DNA from: Ensifer adhaerens
GTDB taxonomy: Bacteria > Pseudomonadota > Alphaproteobacteria > Rhizobiales > Rhizobiaceae
Assembly (NCBI RefSeq): GCF_020035535.1
Contig: NZ_CP083350.1
Span: 1,188,501 to 1,252,500 of the forward strand
DNA length: 64,000 nucleotides
Reading direction: 5' to 3'
Positions 10,553-30,114 of this stretch are shown piece by piece (the stretch's first letter is position 1; each line of letters begins with the position of its first letter). The position numbers were made by a program, and so were the translations under genes. The notes below the pieces were generated by a model. It was not told where the DNA came from. It saw nothing but the letters and a program-made list of their open reading frames with translations, and made no database searches.

Positions 10553-10570
10553 TGTTTTAAAGGTTTGACT

Positions 10571-13500
10571 ATGGCAGAACGTACTCTTACGGCCGGCGAA
10601 ATTGAGATGGCACGCACCATCTTCGGAAACGAAATTGACTATAGCAGGATCCGGATTTTCGACCATCGATGGTGGCTAGGCCCTATCGATGGACGGCCGC
10701 ATGCTCCCGACGGAAACATATATTACCCACAAGGATACTCTCCTGACTTCTCAGCAATAAAGCATATCGGTATCCAACAGAAATTTATTCATGAGCTCGC
10801 TCACGTCTGGCAACATCAAAATGGCTACGATGTCCCTAAAAACGTACTGAATAGCTCGAGCTACGACTACAACCAAGTATTTCATGGAACTTCTTTTTTC
10901 GGAATGGGGCTTGAAGCGCAAGCCGAGATGATAGGCCACTACTATTATCTGAAGAATGGAGGTGTCCTTACGCCCGAGTTTACTGAAGGGCATCCAGTTC
11001 AGCCTATTGGTGAATACGAGCGCTTCCTTCCTCCCGAGTTCGTACCTAGTCCCTCGGTCGCACCTGCGCCAAGCCAAAGTCTTGAACACACCCCGTGGGA
11101 TGCGCCCGGCACGACGCCGGTCCCGGATAACTCAAGCATTGTGCCCTATGCGCCGATTAGTTACGACCCTGCTGTTCCGGCGGTGTCGGGATGGGGGGAT
11201 GTTGGGACCCCTGTAGGCATAGAACCAGTTTCGTCGTCTTTGGGTGTCGTCACACCGGGGACTTTTGAGCAAATACTCTCCCCCGGAGTAGTAGCTCCGT
11301 CGAACATCCAGCCGGTAAAACCCCCAGAATTGCCCCAGAGCCGCCCCGAGGAGCTACGGCCGGATATCACAACTGGCAGCCCGTTGGCGGGTGCGGGTGG
11401 TGGTTTAGGTGTTGGTGGCTTGCGAGGGGAAGATCGTAACGACCGCGCCAGCAACGGCTACGGTGCGGGGCATTATGACCGAGGGCCTTCGAGTGCTCAG
11501 GGTGGCGGAACTGCCGGAGCACCGTCCAGTGGCGGAAAGGCGTCCTCGGGCGCCGGGCATTCGTCTTCAGGTGGATACGCTAGAACTCCTTCAGAGGGGC
11601 CTACACCGAGTGCTAGACCAGATCGTGGAAACAGCCCTGGTGATACCGCCAAGGGCAACGGCTATGGCGGCGGTGGCTCCTATCGCGGGAACGGACCGGG
11701 CCGTAGCCCGACCGGCAAGAGCGATACGAGGGGCCGCGGTGGCGACATTACGCGAGGCGAGCGGGGGAATGGGACCTCGGAAGTAGGCGTCCCGGTCCTA
11801 CTTGACCTCGCCGGCAATGGCCTCGATATCAATCCGCTGTCTTCGTCATCTAAATTTGTGGAGACTGATGGCGATGGTTATGAACGTCGGACGGCGTGGG
11901 CCGGTGCTGGCAATGGCATACTGGTCATCGACCTCGGTGGAGATGGCAAGGTCACTGAAGAGAGGGAGTTTGCGTTTACGCACTGGAATCCGGGCGCGGG
12001 CGGAGATCTGGCAGCGCTGAAAAGCGTATTCGACACGAACGGTAACGGCAAACTTGATGCCGGAGACGCTCGTTGGAACGAATTCAAAGTCATGGTCGAC
12101 GATCAACTCGTTTCGTTGTCGTCGCTTGGAATCGAGTCGATCGACCTAACACCGACGGGGACCGGTCGCGTTTTCAGTGATGGTTCGGCAATTACCGGAA
12201 CCACGACTTTTACGCGAACAGATGGAACTCAGGGGGCAGTTGGGGACGCGATTCTCGCGTCTGATTCTCGAAGTTACGCTATCAAGCGCAACAGCGTCGC
12301 CAATGCCGACGGCTCGACGACGAGCGAAGTTTCGGGCTTCGACAAGGCCGGTGTGCTCGCGTTCCGTGAATTGATAACGGTTAGCGCCGATAGGGCCACT
12401 ACGATCACCAAATTCGATGACGACGGGAATGGCACCTACGATCGTCAGCAGAGCGTCGCTCTCACTGTTGCGGCGGACAATTCGAGGACGACTGTCGTAT
12501 CGAACTTTGCGGCTGACGGCTCTCTTACGGATCGTACGACAACGACCACTCGAGCTGATAAGCGCCTAGTCACGACACTGCTGGATCTCGATGGCGACGG
12601 TGTCACCGATAAACGTCAAATATTCAAATCAAATGCCGACGGATCGACGTCCACTACCGTCGAAGTGCTGAGCGCGAGTGGCGCGGTACTCACGCGTATC
12701 GTCATGGATGCTTCAACAGACGGCTTGTCGAAAACGACCAGCACGGATCTGACCGGCGGCGGCGTGTACCATTTTGTGCGAACCGAAGCGACCATTGTCG
12801 CCGTGGACGGCACTCGGACCAGCACCGTCACCGAGGCGAGCGACGACGGGACGCTGCTGAGCAAGTCAGTCGAAGTGACTTCAGCGAATGGGCAGTTGAA
12901 AACCATTGACATTGACAGCAACGGCGACGGCCGCTTCGACGAACGTCAAGTTATCACAACGGAGGTCGGGGAAGGATTTTATACTACGACGACCGAGATC
13001 TTTAACGAAGATGGCACTCTGCGTTCCAGCGGTTCAACTTTCACGAATCTCGACGGCAAGCAGAAGTCGCTGCAGTTCGATCGCGATGGCGATGGTGTTT
13101 TCGAAAGCCGGGCGTCCGAAACCAGTTGGGATAGCAATGGATTCCGATACGAGTCCGTTTCAAGAAGGGGACCTGCGGACAAGTACAGCAGCACCAGCGT
13201 AGTAGGACCGGGCGGCGCAACCCGGCTAATTGTCGAAGATTCGAACGGAGACGGCAAACCCGATCGAAGGGTCCAAGTCGTTTCGTCCACCCAGCAAACT
13301 ACGACGTCGACGCAGATGTTCAATCGCGCTGGTGCCGTCATAGCTACCGAATCCATTACGGCTTTCAATGATGGTTCGCGGCTTTCCACTAGTTTGGACA
13401 GGGACGGAGACGGTGTCTTTGAAGCATTTGTTGAGCAAACGACAACGTCCGGCGATGACGGTGAACGGATAACGTGGATCACAAGTCGCTCCGGTTTCGG

Positions 13501-16500
13501 TCCCTCTGCTGGTGTCACCGGATCGACGATCCGAACTGTGTCTGCCGACGGCCTAACAACCGACCTCATGACCGATATCGACGGAAACGATCGCTACGAG
13601 CGGTCGACACGGGAAGTCAACGTCGTCCAACAGGACGGTAGCCGCACGAAACGCACGACCGTTCATTCTAACCAGGGGGCAAAGCTTTCTAGCGTTGAGG
13701 CCACCGTTAGTGCTGATCGGAAGACATTGACGATGCTCGAGGATGCCGACGGGGACGGACAGACCGATCGCCAGCAGGTCTCCGTCAACCACCTGGATGG
13801 ACGCAAAAGTGTCGTCTCGTCTCTGCTTGCGGCCGGATCAACAATCCAACGGACTTCCTCGACCCGCAGTGCGGACGGTCTCAGGTCGACCACTGACGTC
13901 GACGCGGATGGTAATGGTTCGACAGACCTGACGACGACAGAGGACACCCAGATCAATGCCGACGGGAGCAGAATCCAGAGCCTGGCTCAGTTTGCAGGCA
14001 ACGGGAAACTGCTATCGAAATCGACCACAAAAATCAGCGGAAACGGCCTTACGTCAGAGAGCACCGGAGATCGCAATGGCGACGGCATCGTCGATCTCCG
14101 CGGAAGCGATACCACGGTTCTCAATGCAAATGGTTCAAGGACGCGAACGATTTCGAGTTCGGTCGACGGTTCGATAACAACGACGGTCAGCGCGAGTGGC
14201 TTGATCAAGACGACGGTGGTTGACGCAGACGGCAACGGGAATGCAGAACGAACGATCTCGGATCAGACCGTGATTGCTGGCGATCTTTCTGCGACGAACA
14301 CAGTTTCTGCTACAAACGGGGCCGGCCAACTTCTGTCGAAGACGACAACGATTACCGCGAGCGATCGCAATACCAGCAGCGCTTCTGTCGACTCGGACGG
14401 TGATGGATTTGATGATCGCACCGTCTCCGCACAGGTAGAGATGAGCGGCGGCACTACGACAACCGTCTCGACGTTCAAAAGGAACGGCACGCAGTCGACG
14501 CTCTCCTCACGAGCGACCACGAGGGTATCCGCGAATGGTCTTTCGACGACGCAGCTAGTCGATCTCGATGGTGATGGCACTGTCGATCGCAAGCTGGAGA
14601 TTGCAAAAGCGCTAAAGTCGGACGGTTCGGTCGAAGAGCGGATCACCGAGTACCACGCAAACGGCTCGCGCAAATCTGAGACTATTACCAAGGTCCTTCG
14701 AGGTGGTGTCGAAAAGACGACTGAATGGCGCAGTGATGGTACGACTACCTCGCGAACGGCGACCGAAAGCCGCGTCTACGCCGACGATGGAAGCGTAGTC
14801 GATACCGTCGTCATGCGAAAAGGCGACGGCGTACTTGAAAGCAAAACCATTAACTCGGTCAGCGGGAACAAGCGCACGACCATCACCACTCGCGATATCG
14901 ACGGAGACGGAACTATCGACCAGGTGGCAAAGTCCGTCTTGCAGGCTGATGGATCGTTGGTGACGACTTACGATGATCTCGCAGTGGATGGCATCGCTCT
15001 CGGTGCACGAAGGACAGTGACGATCAGCGCGAACGGTATGTCGAAGACGACGGAACTTGACATAGACGGCGACGGCACGGCCGACCAACGCTTCCAGTCG
15101 ATTACCGTCCTCAAGGCCGATGGTGGCAAAACCGAAACCATCACGGAATACGGAGCCGACCTTGTCGCACGCGCCAGGAGCGTGTCGAACAGTTCCTGGG
15201 ATGGGCTCGCTGTCGAAGAAAAGTGGGACGTGAACGGAGACGGTGCTTTCGAGCGTTCGCGCAACCGGGTTGTTCAGCTGAATGCCGATAGTTCTTCGGC
15301 TGAGACAGTCAGCCAGTTCGATGGGGCCTCGCTTCGCGCTCGCTACCTGTCGAGTTCGAGCGCCAATGGCCTAGTGAAGACGAAGCAATGGGACCTGAAT
15401 GGCGATGGATCGATCGATGAAAATCTATCGGACACGACCACGCTTAATCTCGACGGAACGACGACGCGGACCGTTCAGGCTTTCGAGGCCGGCATCTCGC
15501 TATCGTCCAGCACGACAACGACCAGCTCCGATGGGCTTACGGCAACAACGCAAGAAAAGCGAAGCCATGCTGGAGCCGAGGCGGACCGGACACTGCGATC
15601 CAACAAAGTCGTTCTCGCCGACGGCACAGTTGTCGAAACGCGGTCGGTGTTCAACGCGGTCAATCAGCTGCGTGAGCAGCAAAGGACTACCGTATCCGGC
15701 AACGGACTTGAAATCAAAATCGAGCGGGACACCGAGGGTGACGGAGATTTCGATCAGGTCGAAACCCGTTCTCAGGCAGTCGATGGCTCCAAGAGGACGG
15801 TGATCGCCAATTTTGCTGACAATGGCGCGAAATTTGGCGTCACTACCGTTTTGACCGCCGCGGATGGCCGAACGACGTCGATCGATTGGGATGAGGACGC
15901 GGGTGGCAGCGTTGACCGTCGCCGCCTTCTGACTGAGAACTTCAATGCCGACGGAAGCTATGAAAGCGTCGCCGTCGACACTAGAGGAAATGGCGTCGCC
16001 GCATCGCGCACACATACTAGAACAAGTGCGGACGGTTCGACCCGTACGATCGCCCGTGATCTCAACGGAGATGGCGTTGCCGACGTGAACGAAGTCTCTG
16101 TCACCGATATCAGGGGTGAGACTGTCGTCACAACGACGAGCAATGCTGAGGCCCGTAGCGCCAAATACCTCACACAGGGAGATGTGTACTGGTCTCAGGC
16201 AATTGCCGCCAAGACTGAGCTGACCGTCGCAAGCGATGGGCTCACTCGAACAATGCGGTCTGACTACGACGGCGACGGAACCTTTGAGCACTTTGCGTCG
16301 TCACGAACGCAGATCGATGGATCCGTCGTGACCGCCATCACCGAGCGGGATAGTGGCGGTAATGTCGTTGCCAGAGGTCTGTCCACCGTCACTGTCGATG
16401 GCAATACAACGATCCTGAAGAAAGATGCCAACAATGACGGCAGGGACGACCGAGTTGAAACCAGCTTCCAACGGTCGGATGGATCCGTTACGCACACGAT

Positions 16501-19500
16501 CATCGAGAACGGTAGCGACGGTTCGTTGCGCCAAACAACGCGGAACGAGGTTAACGCGTTGGGCCGTCGGACACTGACAATCGTCACCGATACGCAGGGC
16601 CGTAAACTTTCCGAGCACACGTTCAGGCTTGACGGTTCATCGACGAAGTGCGGCTTTGATGGCTTTAGCGGCGAGCTCCTCTGGACGGCGGAATTCAGCA
16701 CCGATGGCACCCAGGTCAGTGGGGTTCTTCTTGACCCGTTGAACGAGAAATCCTGGGCGCGCGTCGAACAATCATTCGATTCCGCAGGTGTAAAGGCCTT
16801 CGAAAAGCTGTTCAACGATGACGGGACCACGCAGGAAAACCGCTTCAATCCGACAACGGGCAAGATCACGGATGTCCAGACCTTCGCTGCCAACGGCGCA
16901 CTGACATCAAAGACCGCTTTCGACGCACAAGGCAAGCCGACGAGCACGGTCCTGTATGATCCTCTCAACCAGTCCGTATGGTCTCGTGTCGAGCAAACAT
17001 TCGATCAGACCGGCGCTAAAACGCTTGAGAAGCAATACAACGACGACGGCACCAGGCAGGAAAACCGCTTCAATCCGGCGACCGGAAAGATTACGGAAGT
17101 CCAGACGTTTGCCGCTAACGGGTCATTGACGTCAAAGACCGTCTTCGACGTACAGGGAAAGCCGACCAGCACGGTTCTATACGATCCGCTTAACCAAAAC
17201 CCGTGGTCAAGGGTCGAACAGTCATTCGATCAGACCGGTGCAAAAACACTTGAGAAGCAATTCCATGATGATGGGACGACCCAGGAGCATCGCTTCAATC
17301 CCACGACCGGGAAGGTAACGGAAGTCCAGACTTTCACCGCTGCTGGCGCGCTGACTTCGAAGACACTCTTTGACGCTCAGGGGAAAACAGCGAGCACGAT
17401 CCTGTACGATCCGCTCGACCAGCAAATCTGGTCGCGCGTCGAGCAGACCTTCGATCCCGTTGGCGTCAAGACACTCGAAAAACAATTCAACGACGATGGC
17501 ACGCGCGCTGAGATCTTCTACAGGTCGCCAAGCGGCAAGCCGTACGAGGCGCAGAATTTTGCTTCGAACGGCACCCTGCTATCAAAGACGTTCTACGATA
17601 CTGCCGGCATCAAGACGAGCGCCGTCATCTACGATCCCTTCAGCCAGAATGCCTGGTCGCGCGTCGAACAGACCTTTGATGCAGCAGGGGTGAAGACGAT
17701 CGAGAAACAGTTCAATGACAACGGGACGCGCGTAGAAGTGTTCTACCGGTCCCCAAGTGGGAAACAGTACGAATCTCAGAACTTTGGCGCCGATGGCAAC
17801 TTGGATTCGAAGACCTTCTATGACGTCGCCGGTGTCCGAACGAATGCCGTCGTTTACGACCCTCGCAACCAGGCGAGCTGGTCACGCGTCGAGCAGACGT
17901 TCGATGCGGCTCAAGTGAAGACAGTTGAGAAGCAGTTCGGGGATGATGGCACTCGCGCCGAATTCTTCTATCGGTCGCCAAGCGGGGTTGTCTATGAAAC
18001 CCGGAATTACACGGCCAGCGGCAGCTTGCTGTCGAAGACTTTCTACGATACGGCGGGCAAGAAAACGAGCGCTGTTGTCTACGATGTTGCGAGCCAAAAC
18101 GGTTGGTCACGGGCCGAGCAGACTTTCGATGCTGCTGGCGTGAAAACGCTTGAAAAGCAGTTCCAGGACAACGGGACGCGAACGGATCTCTACTTCCGTT
18201 CGCCCGGTGGTCAGCTGTACGAGGCGCAAGTCTTTTCCACGTCGGGAGTACTTACGAGCAAGACGGAGTATGACGCACTCTCCAATCAAGCCTGGAGCCG
18301 GCGAGAGCACATTATAGACGCGCAGGGCCGTACCACTCAGACGTCAGTCTTCAACGATGATGGCACAAAGAGGGTCGACCACTTTGATGCGACCAGTGCG
18401 CAATCCTGGTCCACAATAGCGTCTTACTACAACGCAGCCGGGCAGCTGTATTTCGTTGACCAGGCCAACGACAATGGTACACGCAGCACGATCAACTACG
18501 ACGTTAGCAATAGCCAGGGCTGGTCGCGGTATGAGCAACTGAAGGACAGTGCTGGCCGGGTCCTGAGCCAAACAAACTTCAACGACGACGGCACCCGGAC
18601 GACCTACACCTACGACCCAACAAATGCCCAAGCTTGGTCGCTTTATCAGCAGAACTATAACGCGGCCGGCCAGCTCACCTCTGTCGATCAGACCAACGAC
18701 AACGGCACGCACAACACCATCCATTATGACGTTGCGAACAACCAAGGCTGGTCGCGGTATGAGCAGTACATTGACGGCAGCGGCCGCGTTCTGAATCAGG
18801 CCAACTTCAACGATGACGGCACCAAGCACGTCTATCAGTTTGATCCGGCGAACACGCAGACCTGGACCAAAATCACGCAAGTGTACAATGCCGCTGGGGC
18901 GCTCGAGTGGCAGGCAAACGAGTTCGATAACGGGGTCACCGAAACAACGACGTTCAACGTCAATAACAACAAACCCTGGGCGCGCTTCGTCCAAACCAAG
19001 AATGCCGGCGGCTCGTTGACGTCGGAAGCGGCGTATCAGAACGACAGTTCGAGATATGTGAAGTTCTGGGATCCCGGCAATGCCGAGACGTGGTCTCAAC
19101 TCGAACAATATGTTGACGCCGCCGGAACACTAACCGCGCAGCTTAAAAGGCTCGACAACGGGTCGGTTGAAGAACTCCGATTCAATGGTCAGGGGACGGC
19201 CCGCCAAATTGCCACCTTCGACGCGGACTTCTACGTCGCGGCCAACCCTGATATCGCCGCCGGCTGGCATGCCCCGCCGATCGAGCACTATAATCAGTTC
19301 GGTTGGAAAGAAGGCCGCAAGCCGAACGCCTGGTTTGATGGTAATTACTACCTACAGCAGAACCCAGACGTCAAAAATGCCGGCCTCAATCCGTTCGAGC
19401 ATTGGCGTGTAAATGGATATGCCGAAGGGCGATCGCCGTTTGCGGGTTACCAGAGATTCGACGGTCGCGCGCAGACAGATCTCGCCGGTATCAGCGATCA

Positions 19501-20374
19501 GCAGTTTTCACAGATGCAACTCGCGCGGATCGACGAAATGCGCCGCGCCGCCAGGGACGTGATAAACTGGTGGCGATTGAAGTCTCCGCGCGAGTGGCCG
19601 CGTTCGAGTGCGGATTCGTACCAGATCGCCAAGTCCAACGAGGTCATTCGTTCAGACAATCGGACTGTCCTGGGTATGTATCCCGAATACGCCGCAAACC
19701 GGTTCCGTCCGGCAAACCTGTCGAACAACAACAACACCGGCGGTGGCGGTCGTGGTGATTATTATGACGGGATCAGCCGTCCGGTAGTTCTCGACCTCGA
19801 CCGCGATGACCATCTCGATCTTCGTCCATTTCACCCTAATCAGGACCCCGGCGCCTCGGCTCCGCGATTTGATTGGGACGGGGACGGCGTCCGCGACTTG
19901 ACCGGCTGGGCCGGGCCCACGGATGGCCTGTTGGCGATCGATTTGGCCGCTGACGGCAGTGCCGGCGGGGATGGCTTCATCGATCAGGCGAAGGAGCTGG
20001 GCTTCTCACTTTGGAAGACGCCGGAGGAGATCAACGGCGAGCAAGAGGTGGTTACCGATCTCGAGGGCCTGCGCCATGCCTTCGACACCAACGGAAACTT
20101 TATGCTCGATGAAGGTGATGCTCGCTGGAGCGAGTTCCGTATCTGGCGGGATCTCAATCAGGACGGGCTTACCGACGCCGGCGAGCTTCAAACCCTTGCG
20201 GAAGCTGACATCCGGATCATCGAACTCGTGCCTTCGATGAACGGCGGAAGCGCCTTTGCCGATGGATCGCAGATCACCGGCATCAGCAGCTACTTGAAGG
20301 CGGACGGGACGAAAGCGCTCGTCGGCGATGCGGAGGTGGGTTACCGCCCGAGCCGTCAAGCCGCGGTAGCATAG
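10571..20374 (+). CDS. giant type I secreted repeat protein with N-terminal HExxH domain
   Basis: This 3,267-residue protein opens with a domain resembling the 'Vgr-related' zincin family (residues 1-130) containing FIHELAHVWQHQ: His74, Glu75 and His78 form the HExxH metal site. A Pro/Gly/Ser-rich linker follows (about 165-415). A Ca-binding block starts VPVLLDLAGNGLDINPL and includes DTNGNGKLDAGD. Three repeat arrays then span about residues 610-2870. Near 2880-2960 are two FDxxYYLxxNPD-type units, and the C-terminus repeats the Ca-binding block (VVLDLDRDDHLDL, DTNGNFMLDEGD, RDLNQDGLTDAGE). It has no Sec signal. The ABC exporter and adaptor genes follow directly, so type I secretion is the likely route. 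ATG 10571 follows AAAGG. Probable role: cell-surface or extracellular adhesin, toxin or protease; unproven. Confidence 0.88.
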   Translation: MAERTLTAGEIEMARTIFGNEIDYSRIRIFDHRWWLGPIDGRPHAPDGNIYYPQGYSPDFSAIKHIGIQQKFIHELAHVWQHQNGYDVPKNVLNSSSYDYNQVFHGTSFFGMGLEAQAEMIGHYYYLKNGGVLTPEFTEGHPVQPIGEYERFLPPEFVPSPSVAPAPSQSLEHTPWDAPGTTPVPDNSSIVPYAPISYDPAVPAVSGWGDVGTPVGIEPVSSSLGVVTPGTFEQILSPGVVAPSNIQPVKPPELPQSRPEELRPDITTGSPLAGAGGGLGVGGLRGEDRNDRASNGYGAGHYDRGPSSAQGGGTAGAPSSGGKASSGAGHSSSGGYARTPSEGPTPSARPDRGNSPGDTAKGNGYGGGGSYRGNGPGRSPTGKSDTRGRGGDITRGERGNGTSEVGVPVLLDLAGNGLDINPLSSSSKFVETDGDGYERRTAWAGAGNGILVIDLGGDGKVTEEREFAFTHWNPGAGGDLAALKSVFDTNGNGKLDAGDARWNEFKVMVDDQLVSLSSLGIESIDLTPTGTGRVFSDGSAITGTTTFTRTDGTQGAVGDAILASDSRSYAIKRNSVANADGSTTSEVSGFDKAGVLAFRELITVSADRATTITKFDDDGNGTYDRQQSVALTVAADNSRTTVVSNFAADGSLTDRTTTTTRADKRLVTTLLDLDGDGVTDKRQIFKSNADGSTSTTVEVLSASGAVLTRIVMDASTDGLSKTTSTDLTGGGVYHFVRTEATIVAVDGTRTSTVTEASDDGTLLSKSVEVTSANGQLKTIDIDSNGDGRFDERQVITTEVGEGFYTTTTEIFNEDGTLRSSGSTFTNLDGKQKSLQFDRDGDGVFESRASETSWDSNGFRYESVSRRGPADKYSSTSVVGPGGATRLIVEDSNGDGKPDRRVQVVSSTQQTTTSTQMFNRAGAVIATESITAFNDGSRLSTSLDRDGDGVFEAFVEQTTTSGDDGERITWITSRSGFGPSAGVTGSTIRTVSADGLTTDLMTDIDGNDRYERSTREVNVVQQDGSRTKRTTVHSNQGAKLSSVEATVSADRKTLTMLEDADGDGQTDRQQVSVNHLDGRKSVVSSLLAAGSTIQRTSSTRSADGLRSTTDVDADGNGSTDLTTTEDTQINADGSRIQSLAQFAGNGKLLSKSTTKISGNGLTSESTGDRNGDGIVDLRGSDTTVLNANGSRTRTISSSVDGSITTTVSASGLIKTTVVDADGNGNAERTISDQTVIAGDLSATNTVSATNGAGQLLSKTTTITASDRNTSSASVDSDGDGFDDRTVSAQVEMSGGTTTTVSTFKRNGTQSTLSSRATTRVSANGLSTTQLVDLDGDGTVDRKLEIAKALKSDGSVEERITEYHANGSRKSETITKVLRGGVEKTTEWRSDGTTTSRTATESRVYADDGSVVDTVVMRKGDGVLESKTINSVSGNKRTTITTRDIDGDGTIDQVAKSVLQADGSLVTTYDDLAVDGIALGARRTVTISANGMSKTTELDIDGDGTADQRFQSITVLKADGGKTETITEYGADLVARARSVSNSSWDGLAVEEKWDVNGDGAFERSRNRVVQLNADSSSAETVSQFDGASLRARYLSSSSANGLVKTKQWDLNGDGSIDENLSDTTTLNLDGTTTRTVQAFEAGISLSSSTTTTSSDGLTATTQEKRSHAGAEADRTLRSNKVVLADGTVVETRSVFNAVNQLREQQRTTVSGNGLEIKIERDTEGDGDFDQVETRSQAVDGSKRTVIANFADNGAKFGVTTVLTAADGRTTSIDWDEDAGGSVDRRRLLTENFNADGSYESVAVDTRGNGVAASRTHTRTSADGSTRTIARDLNGDGVADVNEVSVTDIRGETVVTTTSNAEARSAKYLTQGDVYWSQAIAAKTELTVASDGLTRTMRSDYDGDGTFEHFASSRTQIDGSVVTAITERDSGGNVVARGLSTVTVDGNTTILKKDANNDGRDDRVETSFQRSDGSVTHTIIENGSDGSLRQTTRNEVNALGRRTLTIVTDTQGRKLSEHTFRLDGSSTKCGFDGFSGELLWTAEFSTDGTQVSGVLLDPLNEKSWARVEQSFDSAGVKAFEKLFNDDGTTQENRFNPTTGKITDVQTFAANGALTSKTAFDAQGKPTSTVLYDPLNQSVWSRVEQTFDQTGAKTLEKQYNDDGTRQENRFNPATGKITEVQTFAANGSLTSKTVFDVQGKPTSTVLYDPLNQNPWSRVEQSFDQTGAKTLEKQFHDDGTTQEHRFNPTTGKVTEVQTFTAAGALTSKTLFDAQGKTASTILYDPLDQQIWSRVEQTFDPVGVKTLEKQFNDDGTRAEIFYRSPSGKPYEAQNFASNGTLLSKTFYDTAGIKTSAVIYDPFSQNAWSRVEQTFDAAGVKTIEKQFNDNGTRVEVFYRSPSGKQYESQNFGADGNLDSKTFYDVAGVRTNAVVYDPRNQASWSRVEQTFDAAQVKTVEKQFGDDGTRAEFFYRSPSGVVYETRNYTASGSLLSKTFYDTAGKKTSAVVYDVASQNGWSRAEQTFDAAGVKTLEKQFQDNGTRTDLYFRSPGGQLYEAQVFSTSGVLTSKTEYDALSNQAWSRREHIIDAQGRTTQTSVFNDDGTKRVDHFDATSAQSWSTIASYYNAAGQLYFVDQANDNGTRSTINYDVSNSQGWSRYEQLKDSAGRVLSQTNFNDDGTRTTYTYDPTNAQAWSLYQQNYNAAGQLTSVDQTNDNGTHNTIHYDVANNQGWSRYEQYIDGSGRVLNQANFNDDGTKHVYQFDPANTQTWTKITQVYNAAGALEWQANEFDNGVTETTTFNVNNNKPWARFVQTKNAGGSLTSEAAYQNDSSRYVKFWDPGNAETWSQLEQYVDAAGTLTAQLKRLDNGSVEELRFNGQGTARQIATFDADFYVAANPDIAAGWHAPPIEHYNQFGWKEGRKPNAWFDGNYYLQQNPDVKNAGLNPFEHWRVNGYAEGRSPFAGYQRFDGRAQTDLAGISDQQFSQMQLARIDEMRRAARDVINWWRLKSPREWPRSSADSYQIAKSNEVIRSDNRTVLGMYPEYAANRFRPANLSNNNNTGGGGRGDYYDGISRPVVLDLDRDDHLDLRPFHPNQDPGASAPRFDWDGDGVRDLTGWAGPTDGLLAIDLAADGSAGGDGFIDQAKELGFSLWKTPEEINGEQEVVTDLEGLRHAFDTNGNFMLDEGDARWSEFRIWRDLNQDGLTDAGELQTLAEADIRIIELVPSMNGGSAFADGSQITGISSYLKADGTKALVGDAEVGYRPSRQAAVA
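12412..16480 (+). repeat. array A: about 25 degenerate ~56-residue Ca-binding-like repeats
   Basis: Inside the giant gene a unit of roughly 56 codons recurs about 25 times. Its anchor is a D-x-D-G-D-G-x-x-D loop (for example LDLDGDGVTDKRQ, LEDADGDGQTDRQQ, RDIDGDGTIDQV). This is followed by a Thr/Ser-rich strand with DGS and a second turn S-A/G-D/N-G. Copies differ at most positions and a few have lost the acidic loop, so the array is old or diversifying. The loops resemble EF-hand-like or thrombospondin type 3 calcium sites. Confidence 0.85.
16720..18290 (+). repeat. array B: seven 75-residue repeats
   Basis: Seven consecutive copies of a 75-codon unit begin with YDPLNQ..WSRVEQTFD and continue with K.(L/I)EKQFNDDGTR and SLTSKT.FD..GK. 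The first three copies share the middle NRFNP(T/A)TGK, while copies 4-7 have FYRSPSGK instead. This shows two sub-families produced by separate local duplications. The first three are the most alike at DNA level, suggesting recent expansion. Confidence 0.85.
18300..19185 (+). repeat. array C: about eight ~37-residue YD-like repeats
   Basis: Half-length relatives of array B alternate here, with W-S-x-(Y/L)-(E/Q)-Q followed by AAGQL or GRVL, then FNDDGT or NDNGT and a Tyr-Asp pair (YDVSNSQGW, YDPTNAQAW, YDVANNQGW). The pattern resembles RHS/YD-type repeats. Later copies are increasingly degenerate. Confidence 0.75.
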
Positions 20375-20471: not shown

Positions 20472-22667
20472 ATGGATAACGCTCCACTTGGCGCTCAAGG
20501 CCCAAAGGGCTCAGAGACAGCCGCAGTCGCAACTGATACCGGGATGCGCGCGCTCTGCCTCGTCGCTGGCTACTACCGCATCGCCGCACAGGCCGAGGTC
20601 ATAGCCAAGCAACTCGCACTTGGCGCACCAGCCGCCGCCGATGACCTGTTGCGCGCCGCCACGCGCGTCGGTCTCAAGGCACGGCAGGTGTCTTCAATCT
20701 CGCTTGCCCGTCTCTCAGCATTGCCGACACCGGCGATCGCCTGCCTTGCAGCCGGTGGCTTCGCGATCTTTGCGGGCGCGACGTCTAGCGGGGGGCTACG
20801 CCTCGTCAATCCCGCGACGATGGAAACTCTCGAGGTCGATGCCGTGGAACTGCTGCGGCTGACCGGCGGCAACTTCATCCTGCTGCAGCGCAAGTTTCTA
20901 GGCCCCGGTGTCTCGGCGACATCATTTGGCTTCCGCTGGTTCCTGCCGTCGATCTGGCGCTACCGCCGCTCGCTCGGCCACGTGCTGATCGCCAGCCTGT
21001 TCATCCAGCTGTTCGCGCTGGTGACGCCGATGTTCTTCCAGGTGGTGGTCGACAAGGTTCTGGCGCATCGCAGCTATTCGACGCTGACCGTACTCGTCAT
21101 CGGTCTGGTGACGATCGGCCTCTTCGATGTGGTGCTGCAGTATCTGCGCACCTACGCGCTCACGCATACGACGAGCCGCATTGATGTCGAGTTGGGACGT
21201 CGCCTCTTCCGTCACCTGCTCAACCTGCCGCTTAGCTATTTCGAGACACGCGCCGCCGGCCAGACGGTGGCGCGCATGCGCGAGCTTGAGACGATCCGAG
21301 AGTTCCTGACAGGGCAGGGGTTGTTCAGCGGTCTCGACTTCATCTTCACCTTTGTCTTCATCGCGGTTCTATTTGCCTATTCGACGACGCTCGCCTGGGT
21401 GGTCGTCGCTTCGATCCCGTTCTATGTCGCCATCGGCTTCCTGATCCGGCCGTTCCTGCGGGAGCGCATCGACGAGAAATTCGACCGCGGCGCCTATAGC
21501 CAGCAGTTGCTGGTCGAATCCGTCGTCGGCATGCAGACGCTTAAGGCGTCGGCGATCGAGCCCGTGGTCGCCTCGCAATGGGAAGAGCGTCTGGCCGCCT
21601 ACGTCCGCTCGTCGTTCCTTGCGGCGATGCTTGCGGCCAAGGGCCAGAACGCGATCCAGTACGTCAACAAGCTGACGAGTGCTGCCCTTCTGATGCTTGG
21701 GGCGCAAGCCGTGATCGACGGCAGTTTGAGCGTCGGCGCGCTTGTCGCCTTCAACATGATCGCCGGTCAGGTGTCGCAGCCGATCCTGCGTCTGTCGCAG
21801 CTCTGGCAGGATTTCCAGCAGGTGCAGATCTCGGTCACGCGCCTGGCCGACATTTTGAACGCGCCGGCCGAGCCGCGGCCGCTGCAGCCGGTGGCGCTGC
21901 CAAAGCCGCGCGGCGCCATTGGCTTCAAGAACGTCAGCTTCCGCTATTCGCCAAACGGGCCCGAGATCCTGAAGACCATCAATCTCGACATTCAGCCCGG
22001 CGAAGTCATCGGTATTGTCGGTCCGTCCGGGTCGGGCAAGTCGACGCTGACCAAACTGATGCAACGCTTCTACATTCCTGACACCGGTCAGGTCTTTGTC
22101 GACGGCCAGGATATCGCTCAGGTCGATCCGGCCTGGCTGCGTTCACACGTCGGCGTCGTGCTGCAGGAAAACTTGCTATTCAACCGCACGATCCACGACA
22201 ACATCGCACTCTCCAATCCGGCCATGTCGCGCGAAGCCGTGATCAGTCTTGCGCGCCTTTCCGGCGCTGACGAATTCATCGCCAAGCTGCCGAACGGCTA
22301 CGACACGATGATCGAGGAACGCGGCGCTAATCTCTCCGGCGGTCAGCGGCAGCGGATCGCGATCGCGAGAGCGCTTTCGACCAACCCGCCGATGCTGATC
22401 CTCGATGAGGCGACCAGCGCCCTCGACTATGACAGCGAGCGCATCGTCCTTGCCAATATGCGCCAGATCGTCCGCGGACGCACCGTAATCATCATCGCCC
22501 ACCGGCTGGCAACGGTTCGTGCCTGCAACCGTATCATTGGCATGTCGGAGGGGCGCATCGTCGAGGTCGGCACGCATGACCAGCTGCTGGCGCGCACCGA
22601 CGGCCTCTACGCCCATCTGTGGCGCCTGCAGAACGGCATGGCGGACGTCGCTGCGGAGGGCCAGTGA
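20472..22667 (+). CDS. type I secretion ABC exporter (HlyB-like) with degenerate C39 domain
   Basis: The 731-residue protein has an N-terminal C39-peptidase-like domain (about 25-150), a six-helix transmembrane domain (about 165-440) and an ATPase domain (about 480-720). Walker A GPSGSGKST is near residue 518, followed by the signature [15 protein letters not shown], Walker B MLILDEATSALD and the H-loop IIIAHRLATV. The C39-like domain (GMRALCLVAGYYRIAAQAE) lacks the canonical peptidase arrangement. It is probably an HlyB-type substrate-docking domain rather than a leader protease. It lies between the giant substrate gene and the adaptor, overlapping the latter by one base. The outer-membrane TolC partner is not in the window. 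Confidence 0.93.
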   Translation: MDNAPLGAQGPKGSETAAVATDTGMRALCLVAGYYRIAAQAEVIAKQLALGAPAAADDLLRAATRVGLKARQVSSISLARLSALPTPAIACLAAGGFAIFAGATSSGGLRLVNPATMETLEVDAVELLRLTGGNFILLQRKFLGPGVSATSFGFRWFLPSIWRYRRSLGHVLIASLFIQLFALVTPMFFQVVVDKVLAHRSYSTLTVLVIGLVTIGLFDVVLQYLRTYALTHTTSRIDVELGRRLFRHLLNLPLSYFETRAAGQTVARMRELETIREFLTGQGLFSGLDFIFTFVFIAVLFAYSTTLAWVVVASIPFYVAIGFLIRPFLRERIDEKFDRGAYSQQLLVESVVGMQTLKASAIEPVVASQWEERLAAYVRSSFLAAMLAAKGQNAIQYVNKLTSAALLMLGAQAVIDGSLSVGALVAFNMIAGQVSQPILRLSQLWQDFQQVQISVTRLADILNAPAEPRPLQPVALPKPRGAIGFKNVSFRYSPNGPEILKTINLDIQPGEVIGIVGPSGSGKSTLTKLMQRFYIPDTGQVFVDGQDIAQVDPAWLRSHVGVVLQENLLFNRTIHDNIALSNPAMSREAVISLARLSGADEFIAKLPNGYDTMIEERGANLSGGQRQRIAIARALSTNPPMLILDEATSALDYDSERIVLANMRQIVRGRTVIIIAHRLATVRACNRIIGMSEGRIVEVGTHDQLLARTDGLYAHLWRLQNGMADVAAEGQ

Positions 22668-24130
22668 TGAACGTCCACCAGCCACGCCCGAAGAAGCCCG
22701 CCAATCGCGCCGACCAGGAGTTCCTGCCGGCGGCGATCGAGATCCTGGAGACGCCGGCCTCGCCGGTGCGAGCGGCGATGATCTGGCTGATCTGCCTGCT
22801 GGCAGCGCTAAGTCTCATCTGGGCCTATTTCGGCAAGTTCGACATCGTCGCGACGGCACAAGGCAAGATCCAGCCGATCGGGCGGGTGAAGATTGTTCAG
22901 TCCGAAGAGCCAGGACGCGTCAACGTCACCAATGCGATCAACGGCGCGCGTGTTGAGAAGGATGAGATTCTGATCGAGCTCGATCCAACCACCGCGAAGG
23001 CAGAGGAGCAGGCACTCCTCCTCCGTCTCCAGTCACTCCAGGCGGAGATAGCCCGACGGCAGGCGCTGAACGAGGTCGTCAGCATCTGGTCATCTCTCGA
23101 TATCTGGACAGAGGCCGATGGCCCTCCTAGCCGCCCGATCACGTTTCCCAAAGAGATCAACGCGATGCTCCAGGAGCGTGAGCGTCAGGTCTATGCAGCC
23201 GAAGTCGCCAAGCTCTCCGGTACGATCACTAACCTGCGCGCACAGTACACCAAGGGGCAGGCACAGACCGAGCGGCTGGCCGGGACCATCGCCGCGCAAC
23301 AGGTGTTCGTCGCAACGCTGGCGCAACGCGTGTCGATGCGCAGCAAGCTCGTCGATGCGGAAGCAGGCAGCAAGGCGGCGATGATTGATGCGCAGGAAAC
23401 TCTGCTGGAGGCTGAGCGTGATCTCGCCTCGCAAAAGGGTGAGGTCAAGGAAGCCGAGACGGCGCTTGACGTCGTCAAAAGCGAGGCGGCAAGCCAGTTC
23501 AGCCTGTTTCTCGCCGACAACACCCAACGTCTGACGGAAGCGCAGCGCGAAGCCGACCAGGCGGCCCAATTGCTTGCCAAGGCGCGCCGCAAGCTTGCGG
23601 CGATGACGATCAAAAGCCCGGAGACCGGCGTCATCCAGGCATCGGCGATCACCACGGTCGGGCAGGTGCTGTCACCCGGCACGGAACTGATGCGCATCGT
23701 GCCGACCGGCCAAAAGCTGGAGATCGAGGCCTATCTGCCGAATCGCGACGTCGGTTTCGTCGAAGCCGGCCAAGAGGCGGTGATCAAGGTCGAGGCTTTC
23801 CCCTTCACCCGCTACGGCATTCTTCACGGCAAGGTTATCCGCGTCGCCACTGACGCGATCCCGGAGCCTGACGCGCGGCAGACGGAAGAGTCTTCCTCCG
23901 CCAGCTTGCAGACATCGGTTCCGTTCAGCAATGCGCAGCGCATGCAGAACCTGGTCTATCCCGTCGTCATCGAACCGACGGAGACTTCCATTGTCATCGA
24001 CGGAAAAGCTGTTCCGCTGTCTCCAGGCATGGCCGTGACCATTGAGGTCAAGACCGGGCAGCGGCGGATCCTCGAATACCTGTTCTCGCCGCTGGCCGAG
24101 GTCTCATCCAGTGCGATGAAGGAAAGATAA
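22667..24130 (+). CDS. type I secretion membrane fusion protein (HlyD family)
   Basis: The 487-residue adaptor has a short cytoplasmic N-terminus and one transmembrane segment (about 40-60, AAMIWLICLLAALSLIWAYF). A biotinyl-lipoyl-like beta domain follows (AQGKIQPIGRVKIVQSEEPG). Long coiled-coil hairpins span about 110-340 (many E/Q/A heptads), and a second beta domain contains ITTVGQVLSPGTELMRIVP. HlyD proteins bridge the ABC exporter to TolC across the periplasm. The ATG overlaps the exporter stop as TGATG, showing translational coupling. Length and architecture are standard. Confidence 0.93.
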   Translation: MNVHQPRPKKPANRADQEFLPAAIEILETPASPVRAAMIWLICLLAALSLIWAYFGKFDIVATAQGKIQPIGRVKIVQSEEPGRVNVTNAINGARVEKDEILIELDPTTAKAEEQALLLRLQSLQAEIARRQALNEVVSIWSSLDIWTEADGPPSRPITFPKEINAMLQERERQVYAAEVAKLSGTITNLRAQYTKGQAQTERLAGTIAAQQVFVATLAQRVSMRSKLVDAEAGSKAAMIDAQETLLEAERDLASQKGEVKEAETALDVVKSEAASQFSLFLADNTQRLTEAQREADQAAQLLAKARRKLAAMTIKSPETGVIQASAITTVGQVLSPGTELMRIVPTGQKLEIEAYLPNRDVGFVEAGQEAVIKVEAFPFTRYGILHGKVIRVATDAIPEPDARQTEESSSASLQTSVPFSNAQRMQNLVYPVVIEPTETSIVIDGKAVPLSPGMAVTIEVKTGQRRILEYLFSPLAEVSSSAMKER

Positions 24131-24199
24131 TGTCGGCCAGGAGCGAAGGGCAAGGTCCTGAGCAGCGCGAACGTCATTAGCATTTTGGAGAAATTGCGA

Positions 24200-24601
24200 A
24201 TGTTTGGATATGTTGCCGGGCTGCCGGCCTTTCTCGCCTATTTCGCCATCGGTTTAGCCGCCTATGCGATTTTTGCGAGGGTCTACACCCTGCTTACGCC
24301 CCACGAAGAGATCAAACTCATTCGATCGGGAAACCTCGCCGCGGTCACGGCTTTCCTGGGAGCCCTGATCGGGTTCAGCTTGCCGCTCTCTTCGGCTGCC
24401 GCCAACTCTGTGAGCGTTGTCGACTACATCATCTGGGCAATCATTGGCACAGTGATGCAAGTGCTCGCCTTTTTTATCGCGCGCTTCACGATGCCAAGCC
24501 TGCACGAGAAGATCACACAAGGTGACATGGCCGCGGGTCTCTGGGGCGGAGGAATTGCGTTTTCGATCGGCATCCTCAATGCCGCTTGCATGACCTATTG
24601 A
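24200..24601 (+). CDS. DUF350 family membrane protein (YjfL-like)
   Basis: The 133-residue protein is almost entirely hydrophobic, with four predicted transmembrane helices: LPAFLAYFAIGLAAYAIFA, NLAAVTAFLGALIGFSLPL, VDYIIWAIIGTVMQVLAFF and GGGIAFSIGILNAACM. The pattern TPH(D/E)E..LIR.GN.AAA...GA..GF.LPL is the DUF350/YjfL signature. The ATG at 24200 has GGAG nine bases upstream. It starts 70 bp after the adaptor and 12 bp before the DUF1190 gene. In E. coli, yjfL lies with yjfM and yjfC in a stress-associated operon of unknown mechanism. Here the same trio is attached to a type I secretion locus, which is unusual. Confidence 0.87.
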   Translation: MFGYVAGLPAFLAYFAIGLAAYAIFARVYTLLTPHEEIKLIRSGNLAAVTAFLGALIGFSLPLSSAAANSVSVVDYIIWAIIGTVMQVLAFFIARFTMPSLHEKITQGDMAAGLWGGGIAFSIGILNAACMTY

Positions 24602-24612
24602 GAGGGCACCCG

Positions 24613-25248
24613 ATGCGCAGACGTTTGAGTGGCCGCACGCCTCCTGTCCTTGCCCTTGGCACTATTGCGGTTTCGAGCCTGGCGTTGGCGAGCTGCGGCG
24701 GCAAACTGCCGGTCGAGGATGTCATGTTTAGCTCCGTAGATCAGTGCGTGCAGGCCGGCATGGATGAGCAGGTGTGCCGGGCCGGCTACCAGGACGCCAT
24801 GCGCGTCCATCTGGCTGGCGCTCCCCGGTTCGACCGCCTTGCGGCATGCGAGGCGGAATACGGTTGGGCGCAGTGCACGCAGGCGCGCGCGGCGGACGGC
24901 AGTGGAAGCGCGGGCAGTTTCTTCATCCCCTTTATGGCGGGATACCTGCTATCAACCGGGATCGAGAAAATTGACGACTACTATAAATACCGCCGCAAAG
25001 AAGAGGAGCAGGAAGGAAGTGGTGCCGGCTCCGGCAGTGGCAGCGGTGGTGGTGGACACTACGGCTCGTCGCCCATCTACAAAACACGCTCGGGCCAGAC
25101 AGTGACAGCGGTGCCTGTTTCAGACAGCGGCTCGCAGAACGTTAGCGCATCTTCCAGATACAGCCTCAAGCCAGTCAATGTGAGCACACAAACAGTGGCG
25201 CGACGCGGTTTTGGCAGCCGTTCGTTCTCATTTGGTTTGGGCGGCTGA
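24613..25248 (+). CDS. DUF1190 family lipoprotein (YjfM/YgiB-like)
   Basis: The 211-residue lipoprotein starts MRRRLSGRTPPVLALGTIAV and has the lipobox LASC with Cys28. The DUF1190 core contains conserved Cys-bearing motifs: SVDQCVQAGMDEQVCRAGY, RLAACEAEYGWAQC. It ends in a Ser/Gly-rich low-complexity section (about 140-160) and a basic C-terminal tail (RRGFGSRSFSFGLGG). YjfM/YgiB proteins are always found beside a glutathionylspermidine-synthase-like ATP-grasp protein, which is the next gene here. Function is unknown; it may be the substrate or partner of that ligase. ATG at 24613 selected because it gives the complete signal peptide. Confidence 0.88.
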   Translation: MRRRLSGRTPPVLALGTIAVSSLALASCGGKLPVEDVMFSSVDQCVQAGMDEQVCRAGYQDAMRVHLAGAPRFDRLAACEAEYGWAQCTQARAADGSGSAGSFFIPFMAGYLLSTGIEKIDDYYKYRRKEEEQEGSGAGSGSGSGGGGHYGSSPIYKTRSGQTVTAVPVSDSGSQNVSASSRYSLKPVNVSTQTVARRGFGSRSFSFGLGG

Positions 25249-25249
25249 C

Positions 25250-26407
25250 GTGCGACGGATCACACTCCCCGCCCGCCCGGACTGGCAGGACAAGGCACGA
25301 GCAGTCGGCTTTGGCTTCCACGAAATGTATGGCGAGCCTTACTGGCTCGACGATGCCGCATACGTGTTCACCCTTGAGCAGATAGAGACACAGATCGAGG
25401 GACCAAGCCAAGAGCTTCATGAAATGTGTGTCGAGCTCGTCGCAGATATCGTTACGAGCGACGAAATGCTGCACCGGCTGGCCATCCCGGAAGAGTTCAG
25501 AGATCTCGTTTGCACGTCCTGGCAACGCCGAGATCAGCACCTCTACGGCCGCTTCGATCTGGCGTACGACGGAAGAGGCCCGGCCAAGCTGCTCGAGTAC
25601 AACGCGGATACGCCCACGTCGATATTCGAGTCCGCCTTCTTTCAATACAACTGGCTCACAGATCAGATGGCCAACGGCGTTTTGCCGCCTGACGCTGATC
25701 AGTTCAACTCTCTGCAGGAGTGCCTCATCGAGGCGTTCCAGGGGTTCAATCAGCGTTCCATTTTTCATTTCGCCGCAACCATGGACAATGATGAGGATCG
25801 CGGGACGACGGTTTATCTTATGGACTGTGCCGTGCAGGGAGGCCACCGGGTCGAGTTGCTCGATGTTCGTGACATTGGCGTAGATGCCAGTGGCCGGTTT
25901 ACAGATTTGCAAAACCGCGTCATCGACCGCTGCTTCAAGCTCTATCCGTGGGAATTGATGCTGCGAGAGCCGTTTAGCTGCTACCTGCCGCATTCGGCAT
26001 CTGTCTTCGTCGAGCCGGCCTGGAAAGCCGTCCTTTCGAACAAAGGCCTCCTCCCATTGCTTTGGGATCGCTATCCGAACCATCCAAATCTTCTGCCAAG
26101 CTTTTTCGCCGACGATGCCAGCGCCTGGCAACTTTCAGACTACGTTCGCAAGCCACTGCTTTCTCGTGAAGGCGAGAATGTGTCTGTCTATCGTGATGGT
26201 AAGGAATTCCTGTCCCTGGGAGGGAGCTACGGCGGGGAGGGGTTCGTCGTCCAAGCCTACGCGCCGCTTTTTCACAGTGACGCTGGCTACGCCGTTCTCG
26301 GAAGCTGGATAGTCGGTGATCGTGCTTGCGGCCTCGGCATTCGCGAGGATCGCACCTGTATCACCGCCAATCTGTCGCGGTTCGTACCCCACGTTATCTT
26401 GGACTGA
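25250..26407 (+). CDS. glutathionylspermidine synthase-like ATP-grasp protein (YjfC/YgiC family)
   Basis: The 385-residue protein matches the synthetase half of E. coli Gsp synthase: pre-ATP-grasp start RRITLPARPDWQDKARAVGF, then the signature GRFDLAYDGRGPAKLLEYN followed by ADTPTSIFESA. It keeps the C-terminal phosphate/Mg loop LSLGGSYGGEGF. It lacks the amidase domain of bifunctional Gsp synthase, as YgiC and YjfC do. Family members are thought to form an amide bond between a carboxylate and an amine using ATP; the true substrates of the stand-alone members are unknown. Start is GTG at 25250, directly after the DUF1190 stop at 25248. It is the last intact gene of the locus. Confidence 0.88.
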   Translation: MRRITLPARPDWQDKARAVGFGFHEMYGEPYWLDDAAYVFTLEQIETQIEGPSQELHEMCVELVADIVTSDEMLHRLAIPEEFRDLVCTSWQRRDQHLYGRFDLAYDGRGPAKLLEYNADTPTSIFESAFFQYNWLTDQMANGVLPPDADQFNSLQECLIEAFQGFNQRSIFHFAATMDNDEDRGTTVYLMDCAVQGGHRVELLDVRDIGVDASGRFTDLQNRVIDRCFKLYPWELMLREPFSCYLPHSASVFVEPAWKAVLSNKGLLPLLWDRYPNHPNLLPSFFADDASAWQLSDYVRKPLLSREGENVSVYRDGKEFLSLGGSYGGEGFVVQAYAPLFHSDAGYAVLGSWIVGDRACGLGIREDRTCITANLSRFVPHVILD

Positions 26408-26572: not shown

Positions 26573-27038
26573 TTTTGATTGCCGAGTCGTTCTCGACCTC
26601 GACGGGGATCGTATCGAGCTCTGCACTCTCGGGCTCCAATATCCATTTTGACTACGATCGTGATGGTTTCGCCGAGAAAACGGGGCTGGGTTTCCGCCGA
26701 CGATGGCATCTTGGTCATCGACGCCAATGGAAATGGATCAGTCGACGGCGCCAACAAGCTCTTTGGCTCGCCGTTGCAGGACGGCTTTGCCGTGCTTGAG
26801 ACGTTCGACAGCAATCGCGACAGTAAGATTGACCAGAACGATGCGACGTTTGAGCAATTGCGCGTGTGGCGCGACCTGGACCAGGACGGGGTGTGTGACG
26901 AAGACGAGTATGACACTCACTGTGGTCGGCATCACCTCAATTTCGCTCAATCGGACCGATGATTACTCATTGGTATGCGATGCCGATGATCTCATCGATG
27001 CTGCTCAGGTTGCATTTCCGACTTACAGATTTTCGTAG
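26573..27038 (+). pseudogene. frameshifted C-terminal remnant of a second Ca-binding type I secreted protein
   Basis: Four consecutive reading-frame pieces line up with the C-terminal block of large type I secreted proteins. First RVVLDLDGDRIELCTLG, then SNIHFDYDRDGFAEKTG, then WVSADDGILVIDANGNG continuing to FDSNRDSKIDQNDA and VWRDLDQDGVCDEDE, finally GITSISLNRTDD. Each change of piece needs a frameshift, so at least three indels are present. The upstream part of the gene is absent. The module parallels the tail of the giant protein at 10571-20374 but is clearly diverged from it. It is a relic of another substrate gene, probably once exported by the same machinery. Confidence 0.75.
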
Positions 27039-28876: not shown

Positions 28877-28982
28877 TAGCTCAACTTTTTTTGTGAGATT
28901 ACTCTTCGTCGCGTGTCCCAGTTACAGGGATCTCGTTTCAACAAATTTTCGGTCCCTGAACATTGCTGAGAGGGATACGGGA

Positions 28983-30068
28983 ATGACGGGCAGGGCAACA
29001 GCGGGCGGTTCAGGACCGGGAGCTGTAACTCAACGGAAAAGTCAGCGGAAGTCGCGCAGGTTTTCGCTATTATTTCTATCGACGTTCCTGGGGACCATTG
29101 TCGCTGGAGGTTACACGACCGCGCTGGCGCAAGAGGCCAGAGAAACCCTTTCCTTCAATATCCCGGCTCAGCCTCTGGCGTCAGCATTGGCAACTTTCAT
29201 GCGCGCCAGTGAGTGGGATGTCAGCTTCACATCCGACGCAGTCTCTGGCAAACGCTCGACGGTGGTCACAGGACTTATGTCGCCAGAGCAGGCGCTCAGA
29301 ACTCTGCTCGCAGGAACCGGCGTGATCGTGCGCATGGCTGGTGCAAGGACCGCAGCACTGGTTGTCGCATCGTCGAACGGTAATGATGCGAGCAGTGGCG
29401 ACACTACCACTTTGCAGCCAATTGTTGTTGCAGTTCAAGGTTCCACCACGGAAGGAACCGGCTCCTATACCACCGGCGAAATGAGCACGGCCACAGGGTT
29501 GGACTTGTCGATTAGGGAAACCCCGCAATCGGTGAGTGTCGTGTCCAGCGCACGCATGCGTGATAACGGCATGACTACGGTGGAAGATGCTCTTAGTAAG
29601 ACAACAGGCATCACCGTGTTAGCCACCGGTGGCGAACGGAGCAACTATTTCTCACGAGGCTTCCAGGTCGACAACATCATGATGGATGGTGTGCCGATCG
29701 CGCACGATTCTGACACTCTCGGTTCCGCCTCACTGGCCATGTATGATCGCATTGAGGTGGTTCGCGGGGCGACAGGCCTTCTTGAAGGTGCAGGCAACCC
29801 TTCTGCCTCGATCAACCTGGTTCGCAAGCGTCCGACGGACACGCGCCAGATTTCGGTCACGGGCTCGGCCGGAAGTTGGGCAGACTACATGGGCATATTG
29901 GATGCCGGCGGTTCGCTCAATGCGGATGGTAGCCTGCGCGGGCGCTTCGTTACCTCACTTCAGGATGCCAATACATACACTCAGGATTACGAGCACAAGC
30001 GGCAGCTCTACTACGGAGTTCTTGAGGCTGATATTACCGACAACACCATGCTGACCTGCCACGGGTAA
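28983..30068 (+). pseudogene. TonB-dependent siderophore receptor, 5' part (interrupted by IS)
   Basis: The N-terminal 356 codons of a FhuA/FpvA-like receptor. The signal peptide ends near TTALAQ. An STN signalling domain follows (ETLSFNIPAQPLASALATFM to about residue 125). The plug domain runs from RETPQSVSVVSSARMRDNGM to RIEVVRGATGLLEGAG-NPSASINLVRKRP. The reading frame runs into the IS at 30052 and stops six codons later at 30068. Removing the IS and one copy of the 4-bp duplication joins DNTMLT to FGGYYNSER in frame. The result is a gene of 2,484 bp (827 residues), normal for the family. ATG at 28983 follows GGGATACGGGA. It is non-functional unless the IS excises precisely. Confidence 0.9.
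30048..30051. repeat. target-site duplication ATGC (left copy)
   Basis: ATGC immediately precedes the left inverted repeat of the IS, and an identical ATGC lies at 31323-31326 immediately after the right end. A 4-bp duplication is the expected length for IS407-group elements. Confidence 0.9.
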
Positions 30069-30114
30069 TTTCCTCCAGATTGGATTAGAGTCCGGCCTGA
30101 TTAAGGACGGACGC

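Follow-up and report, generated by a model that had tools for sequence, protein, structure and literature searches.

Organization of the locus

The sequence analyzed here, called the window below, is a stretch of 64,000 nucleotides from Ensifer adhaerens (contig NZ_CP083350.1, positions 1,188,501 to 1,252,500), part of a 3.2-Mb contig in a genome of 8.1 Mb. In it a very long gene, indicated as the giant, is followed on the + strand by the genes for the type I secretion proteins HlyB and HlyD, and then by three genes of the families DUF350, DUF1190 and GSP_synth, the last coding for an ATP-grasp ligase. An earlier note, made from the letters alone, had described the run from HlyB to the ligase and had read it as a secretion-coupled surface-modification system, where the ligase would act on the lipoprotein, on the giant or on the envelope. 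The gene run itself was confirmed: all five genes lie on the + strand, and each product scores above the curated cut-off of its family. The last three genes, indicated as the cassette, and the protein which their ligase may modify are the main subject of this report.

Likely translation starts were judged from the sequence and from relatives. The DUF350 gene (24200..24601, + strand) starts at the ATG at 24200, with a Shine-Dalgarno sequence, TTGGAG, upstream; it codes for a YjfL-like, predicted inner-membrane protein of 133 amino acids (PF03994, 123 bits). The DUF1190 gene (24613..25248, + strand; ATG at 24613) codes for a YjfM/YgiB-like predicted lipoprotein (PF06693, 108 bits), with the lipobox LASC, containing Cys28, and the C-terminal tail RRGFGSRSFSFGLGG. 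The gene of the YjfC/YgiC-like ligase (25250..26407, + strand; PF03738, 478.7 bits) starts at the GTG at 25250.

The C-terminal tail of DUF1190 proteins

DUF1190 proteins share a C-terminal tail, composed of RxGFG, some further residues and, often, a final Gly-Gly. In the window it takes up residues 197-211 (25201..25245, + strand), the predicted substrate end for the ligase. All rows of a 40-row alignment keep G199, G201, G210 and G211, while R197 is found in 39 and F200 in 38 of them. The other invariant residues are the lipobox Cys28, Leu25, Cys45, Cys55, Cys79, Ala62, Pro71, Pro106 and Gly110. Entropy averages 1.08 bits over residues 186-203, compared with 1.68 for the core and 1.78 for the linker. 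In an AlphaFold2 model of the protein (mean pLDDT 68.8) the core is mostly confident, while residues 192-211 score below 50, with the exception of 207: the tail is predicted to be disordered, though conserved.

The Gly-Gly end was counted in several sets. It is present in 73 of 80 DUF1190 proteins, from the window and from 79 close loci, L088 being left out, versus 13 of 1139 control open reading frames, one of which is itself a DUF1190 frame, that of L088. Among the matches listed in a database search with tail-containing profiles or queries, mainly rhizobial and enterobacterial, 128 of 131 proteins end in Gly-Gly. The same end is found in both E. coli paralogues and, phylum-wide, in all of the 30 loci that scored best among 68 places. 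In the class-wide set described below, G[FLY]G occurs within the last 40 residues of all 46 DUF1190 proteins.

Tailed partners of ligases without a recognized DUF1190 neighbor

A ligase family match was found in 71 of 385 class-wide genomes. The class-wide set consists of 58 regions from the places listed; those on short contigs, those with partial hits and some further ones are not included. A ligase scoring at least 250 bits with our own profile is present in 52 of them, and 45 of these 52 loci feature a DUF1190 match, also by an own profile, in 43 cases within 200 bp. For five of the other seven loci (L136, L143, L157, L176, L180) a reading frame that stops 4-11 bp ahead of the ligase frame carries RGGFG and a short tail at its end. 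The 58 regions hold 4748 stop-to-stop frames of at least 100 codons with no DUF1190 match, and of these only the five just named carry the RGGFG tail. With a looser tail pattern, whose background is about 1%, the binomial probability of finding it in five of seven is 2e-9, the patterns and the 250-bit threshold having been set after the data had been seen.

Pfam DUF1190 found nothing in the partners of L136, L157 and L176, and scored weakly in L143 (10.7 bits) and L180 (20.3 bits, versus a cut-off of 22). The proposal that all five cryptic partners are unrelated to DUF1190 is weakened by the two latter scores, one a weak match at the tail, the other just below the cut-off. As judged from these sequences, the tail of the partner appears to stay with the ligase more than the remainder of the protein does.

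Relatives of the ligase

The best solved relatives of the window ligase are YgiC (chain 7uk8, 427 bits) and YjfC (chain 7uk6, 392 bits). With a GSP_synth ligase nearest to these two proteins, an adjacent DUF1190 lipoprotein with an RxGFG tail and a DUF350 gene, the locus is assigned to the YgiC/YjfC type. In E. coli database records both YgiC and YjfC are named peptide-spermidine ligases, and the title of a 2023 study by Pederick and colleagues, known to us through reference lists and citing passages, reportedly contains the same term. Among the papers listed in a literature search, none was found that names the DUF1190 tail as the ligase substrate; the study by Pederick and colleagues may already say so.

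GspS links glutathione, through the carboxylate of its glycine, to spermidine. The stretch GRFDL...EYNAD of the window ligase aligns with GRMDF...EYNAD of GspSA, and the residues concerned are those we take to bind metal and substrate. According to PMC12270671, spermidine is also conjugated, by other enzymes, to the C-terminal carboxylate of SUMO, which ends in LGG. The exposed Gly-Gly or small-residue end of the DUF1190 tail fits both the GspS-type chemistry and the SUMO-spermidine precedent, and the ligase is therefore proposed to cap this tail with a polyamine.

Genomic setting of the cassette

Close loci were collected by a contig scan with an alignment of four ligase sequences, and the best 80 of 526 loci were retained. 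Little upstream sequence is available in 4 of these 80 loci and in 5 of the 58 class-wide regions. All three cassette genes are present in 79 of the 80 loci, PspA in 63 and DUF2491 in 64. In the standard layout, checked by Pfam in L010, a divergent DUF2170-PspA pair is followed by Kch, DUF2491, DUF350, DUF1190 and the ligase. Eleven Rhizobium/Agrobacterium loci (L044-L052, L067, L084; L044 and L047 end at a contig edge) contain the trio with no match to PspA, DUF2170, Kch or DUF2491, and possibly represent a stand-alone form of the cassette.

The window locus is not a PspA-type operon: PspA, DUF2170, Kch and DUF2491 gave no tblastn match in the window. DUF2491 is absent from both the window genome and that of Ensifer LC163 (L011), the relative discussed below. 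PspA has a single partial match (50 bits) elsewhere in the window genome and none in LC163, so that the regulatory half appears to be missing in both genomes.

Neighboring secretion genes were sought with thresholds of at least 250 bits for HlyB and at least 40 bits for HlyD. None of the 80 closest loci contains HlyB, and only two contain HlyD: LC163, where the match is a remnant, and L028, where it has 36% identity and lies about 9 kb away from the ligase. None of the 58 class-wide regions contains either gene. In the phylum-wide set (L199-L228), where a DUF1190-ligase pair is found, a TolC gene lies beside the DUF1190 gene in 14 of 30 loci, and in E. coli K-12 the paralogues ygiB-ygiC directly follow tolC. 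TolC is the usual exit duct of type I secretion, and the position of ygiBC in loci close to E. coli leaves room for a weak functional tie between the ligase and export channels. The statement of the earlier note, that the three genes travel in enterobacterial stress operons with PspA-like partners and not with type I secretion, has to be corrected on account of ygiBC in E. coli K-12.

Distribution of the exporter

HlyB (20472..22667, + strand) is a type I secretion permease/ATPase, matching ABC_membrane/ABC_tran above the Pfam curated cut-offs and TIGR01846 (type_I_sec_HlyB) with 925.7 bits versus a cut-off of 725.55. The start of HlyD (22667..24130, + strand), the periplasmic adaptor, is likely the ATG at 22667, overlapping the HlyB stop; the protein matches HlyD_3 and TIGR01843 (type_I_hlyD), the latter with 331.3 bits versus a cut-off of 208.65. 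The giant (10565..20374, + strand), a neighbor and not a member of the cassette, is by its translation a protein of 3269 amino acids and a candidate type I secretion substrate; with two such components above their cut-offs and a large candidate substrate adjacent, the locus is assigned to type I secretion. The giant features a HELAH stretch near the N-terminus, D-x-D-G-D repeats and YD-like repeats; a Pfam search matched no family. Its translation ends in ...RQAAVA, without an RxGFG tail. Directly 5' of it, a protein of 233 amino acids (9851-10552), without Pfam or NCBIfam match, could be a partner of the giant.

HlyD relatives at E <= 1e-60 are present in 9 of 151 family genomes, the window genome included, and at none of the ten other HlyD matches, returned as short loci, was DUF350 found. 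In Ensifer sp. PDNC004 a giant-HlyB-HlyD module lies on a plasmid; HlyB is 94% and HlyD 85% identical to the window proteins, with dN/dS of 0.06 and 0.10, respectively, and the C-terminal part of the giant is 53% identical over 1046 amino acids. R. ruizarguesonis TP23, Phyllobacterium T1293, Ochrobactrum LM19 and S. meliloti T073 have the same order, with 75-77% identity for HlyB and 48-56% for HlyD. Four of the five relatives match the window giant, while T1293 carries a different large gene there. In all five, DUF350, DUF1190 and the ligase gave no match within 14-20 kb on each side of the exporter. The giants of the window and of PDNC004 (L101:8260-17709) match in the repeat and C-terminal parts, the first 400-500 residues being outside the matches shown; the N-terminal part contains HELAH in the window and, according to its record, a Hint domain in PDNC004. 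An N-terminal exchange between giants is possible.

In Ensifer LC163, a 177-bp stretch 75% identical to the window HlyD lies about 180 bp before the DUF350 ATG. The match spans 44 residues, its frame is stopped upstream, and no other HlyD sequence was seen. HlyB had no match at 1e-150 in LC163, where 150 of 289 candidates were scored. The cassettes of LC163 and of the window show dN/dS of 0.11, 0.17 and 0.05, the last value being that of the ligase, with dS saturated at 1.8. Since the LC163 cassette is intact and under purifying selection while an HlyB match is lacking, the cassette likely does not need this exporter, and in LC163 it has likely outlived it.

The junction between exporter and cassette

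The HlyD stop and the DUF350 ATG are separated by 69 bp. A scan of this gap found neither a terminator-like nor a promoter-like site; taken over all 64,000 nucleotides, such scans yielded no more than with shuffled sequences. The cassette possibly shares a transcript with the exporter, and transcription of the exporter operon may now run on into it. Homology to Brucella endophytica at the DNA level starts no more than about 20 bp upstream of the DUF350 ATG, indicating that the cassette retained its own ribosome-binding site, not the usual upstream sequence. A DUF2491 remnant was sought between HlyD and DUF350, and no DUF2491 end is visible there.

Just 3' of the cassette, at 26579-26962, lies a broken C-terminal domain of the giant type (ILVIDANGNGSVDG...FDSNRDSKID), which matches the exporter-linked giants of four relatives at 26-37%. 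It is likely what remains of another type I substrate gene, and a rearrangement among such genes is a plausible cause of the contact between the two modules.

Further downstream, a TonB-dependent receptor gene (28893-32741) is split into a plug part (28893-30068) and a barrel part (31323-32741); between the two halves, at 30375-31304, lies an integrase-core (rve) gene. Genes for an ECF sigma factor and FecR lie upstream of the split receptor.

Proposed function and alternative explanations

On balance, we favor with some reserve the reading of the three genes as a yjfLMC-type cassette, whose ligase joins a polyamine to the DUF1190 tail, and whose position behind HlyBD results from a rearrangement. 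The ligase would use ATP to join a spermidine-like polyamine to the C-terminal carboxylate of the RxGFG tail; we infer both that the tail is the ligase substrate and that the amine is a polyamine. Homospermidine is the obvious polyamine in rhizobia. The modification would precede export of the lipoprotein, and its role would be envelope protection: the membrane-anchored protein would receive a positively charged tip, and DUF350 would be its partner in the inner membrane. The suggestion of the earlier note that the ligase acts on the lipoprotein has thus become more credible, the tail being the most constant feature next to the ligase and the E. coli homologues being named as peptide-spermidine ligases.

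A broader proposal may also be made, tentatively, and we would not give it quite an even chance: RGGFG...G(G/S) would be a transplantable C-terminal tag, shared by a family of membrane-anchored proteins, including both DUF1190 and short proteins not similar to DUF1190, which a neighboring ATP-grasp ligase would cap with a polyamine. Such a system would be the bacterial parallel to ubiquitin-like conjugation through Gly-Gly, the acceptor being a polyamine. In either case, a conserved tail on the adjacent protein offers a concrete candidate substrate for a common ligase family, open to test in E. coli K-12; if the proposal is true, polyamines would be covalent decorations of the envelope, beyond their role as free cations.

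Several observations weigh against the favored reading. A Sec-exported lipoprotein would need to be modified beforehand, in the cytosol. The end of the tail is variable: of the seven exceptions among the 80 close proteins, five end in GS, one in SG and one (L031) was read in a broken frame, and only 20 of the 46 class-wide DUF1190 proteins end in Gly-Gly, the others having a final Ser (21), Thr (4) or Ala (1). A universal terminal Gly-Gly is weakened by the latter count, and the claim is now restricted to RxGFG and a small final residue. As for the cryptic partners, thresholds and patterns were chosen post hoc, and the L180 partner is probably a diverged DUF1190. No tailed partner was found for two of the 52 ligases (L168, L186), and five of six lower-scoring ligases lack DUF1190. 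PspA is near the ligase in just 2 of the 58 class-wide regions, which shows that the stress operon is no general setting of the ligase. Finally, the LC163 remnant indicates that the junction with the exporter seems to predate the window genome, and a past functional link is possible.

The coupling to type I secretion proposed in the earlier note, either by modification of the giant or by a ligase working only with the HlyBD exporter, is in our judgment most unlikely. It may be argued from the co-directional run, the short gap without terminator-like site, the LC163 remnant at the same place, which suggests a junction older than one genome, and the neighborhood of ygiBC and tolC, seen in E. coli and in 14 of 30 phylum-wide loci, but no intact HlyBD accompanies the cassette in the 80 closest loci or in the 58 class-wide regions, the exporter module occurs without the cassette in five relatives, LC163 has kept the cassette without an HlyB match, and the giant lacks the tail. 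As a conserved feature, the coupling was therefore rejected from the neighborhoods of both cassette and exporter. The co-occurrence search, suggested in the earlier note as a check, thus found the cassette by secretion genes in nearly this genome only, the exception being the HlyD remnant of LC163. Since relatives keep cassette and exporter apart, the link is likely accidental, and a local rearrangement of operons has likely brought the cassette to its place behind HlyB-HlyD. As the window shows, a gene run that catches the eye can consist of two separable modules lying side by side. A second possibility, which we regard as very unlikely, is that the cassette still serves a PspA-type envelope stress system as its output arm, the PspA partners being encoded at another place. 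PspA is near most of the close loci, the window genome holds its partial match, and an operon of this type is described in parts of PMC11237479; against this stand the absence of DUF2491 from the window genome and LC163, the lack of a PspA match in LC163 and the rarity of PspA in the class-wide regions.

A different role for the ligase is rather unlikely, yet deserves attention: it may make a small polyamine-peptide metabolite, the DUF1190 tail being conserved for other reasons, such as docking, unmodified, to DUF350 or to the ligase. Glutathionylspermidine synthetase, to which the ligase family is homologous, acts on a tripeptide. In most proteins counted, some 9-25 residues separate RGGFG from the end, so that binding, and not chemistry at the end, could be selected, and the class-wide variation of the final residue points in the same direction. 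This is opposed by the last two residues, Gly-Gly in all 40 aligned rows, by the persistence of the tail where the body of the partner is hardly or not recognizable, and by the statement that YgiC has no Gsp synthase activity (Sui et al. 2012, cited in a passage of PMC12506659).

Comparison with known systems

The E. coli operon yjfIJKLMC has the same DUF350-DUF1190-GSP_synth order, and its DUF1190 protein ends in GG with an RGGYG tail; the window locus, in contrast, lacks DUF2170, PspA and DUF2491 and has HlyBD upstream instead. Like the window, the E. coli genes tolC-ygiB-ygiC code for a ligase and a DUF1190 protein, the latter ending in RGGFG...MGG in E. coli; they differ in lacking DUF350 and in having TolC, in place of HlyBD, as the upstream partner. 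PspA operons with an ATP-grasp ligase, a K+ channel, DUF350, DUF1190 and DUF2491 are described in passages of Ravi et al. 2024 (PMC11237479). These contain the same cassette genes, and are the usual form in close relatives (L010 and others), while the regulatory half is absent at the window locus, with PspA reduced to one partial match in the genome and DUF2491 missing.

On the exporter side, the PDNC004 module matches the window in gene order and in HlyB and HlyD identity, but has no cassette match within 20 kb, and the N-terminal part of its giant falls outside the matches shown. GspSA differs from the window ligase in extent, the latter matching the synthetase part only: with the GspSA equivalog PRK10507 it scores 124 bits, versus a cut-off of 882, the best stretch covering profile positions 225-448 of 619. 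The two are nevertheless ATP-grasp homologues, aligned over GRMDF...EYNAD and GRFDL...EYNAD.

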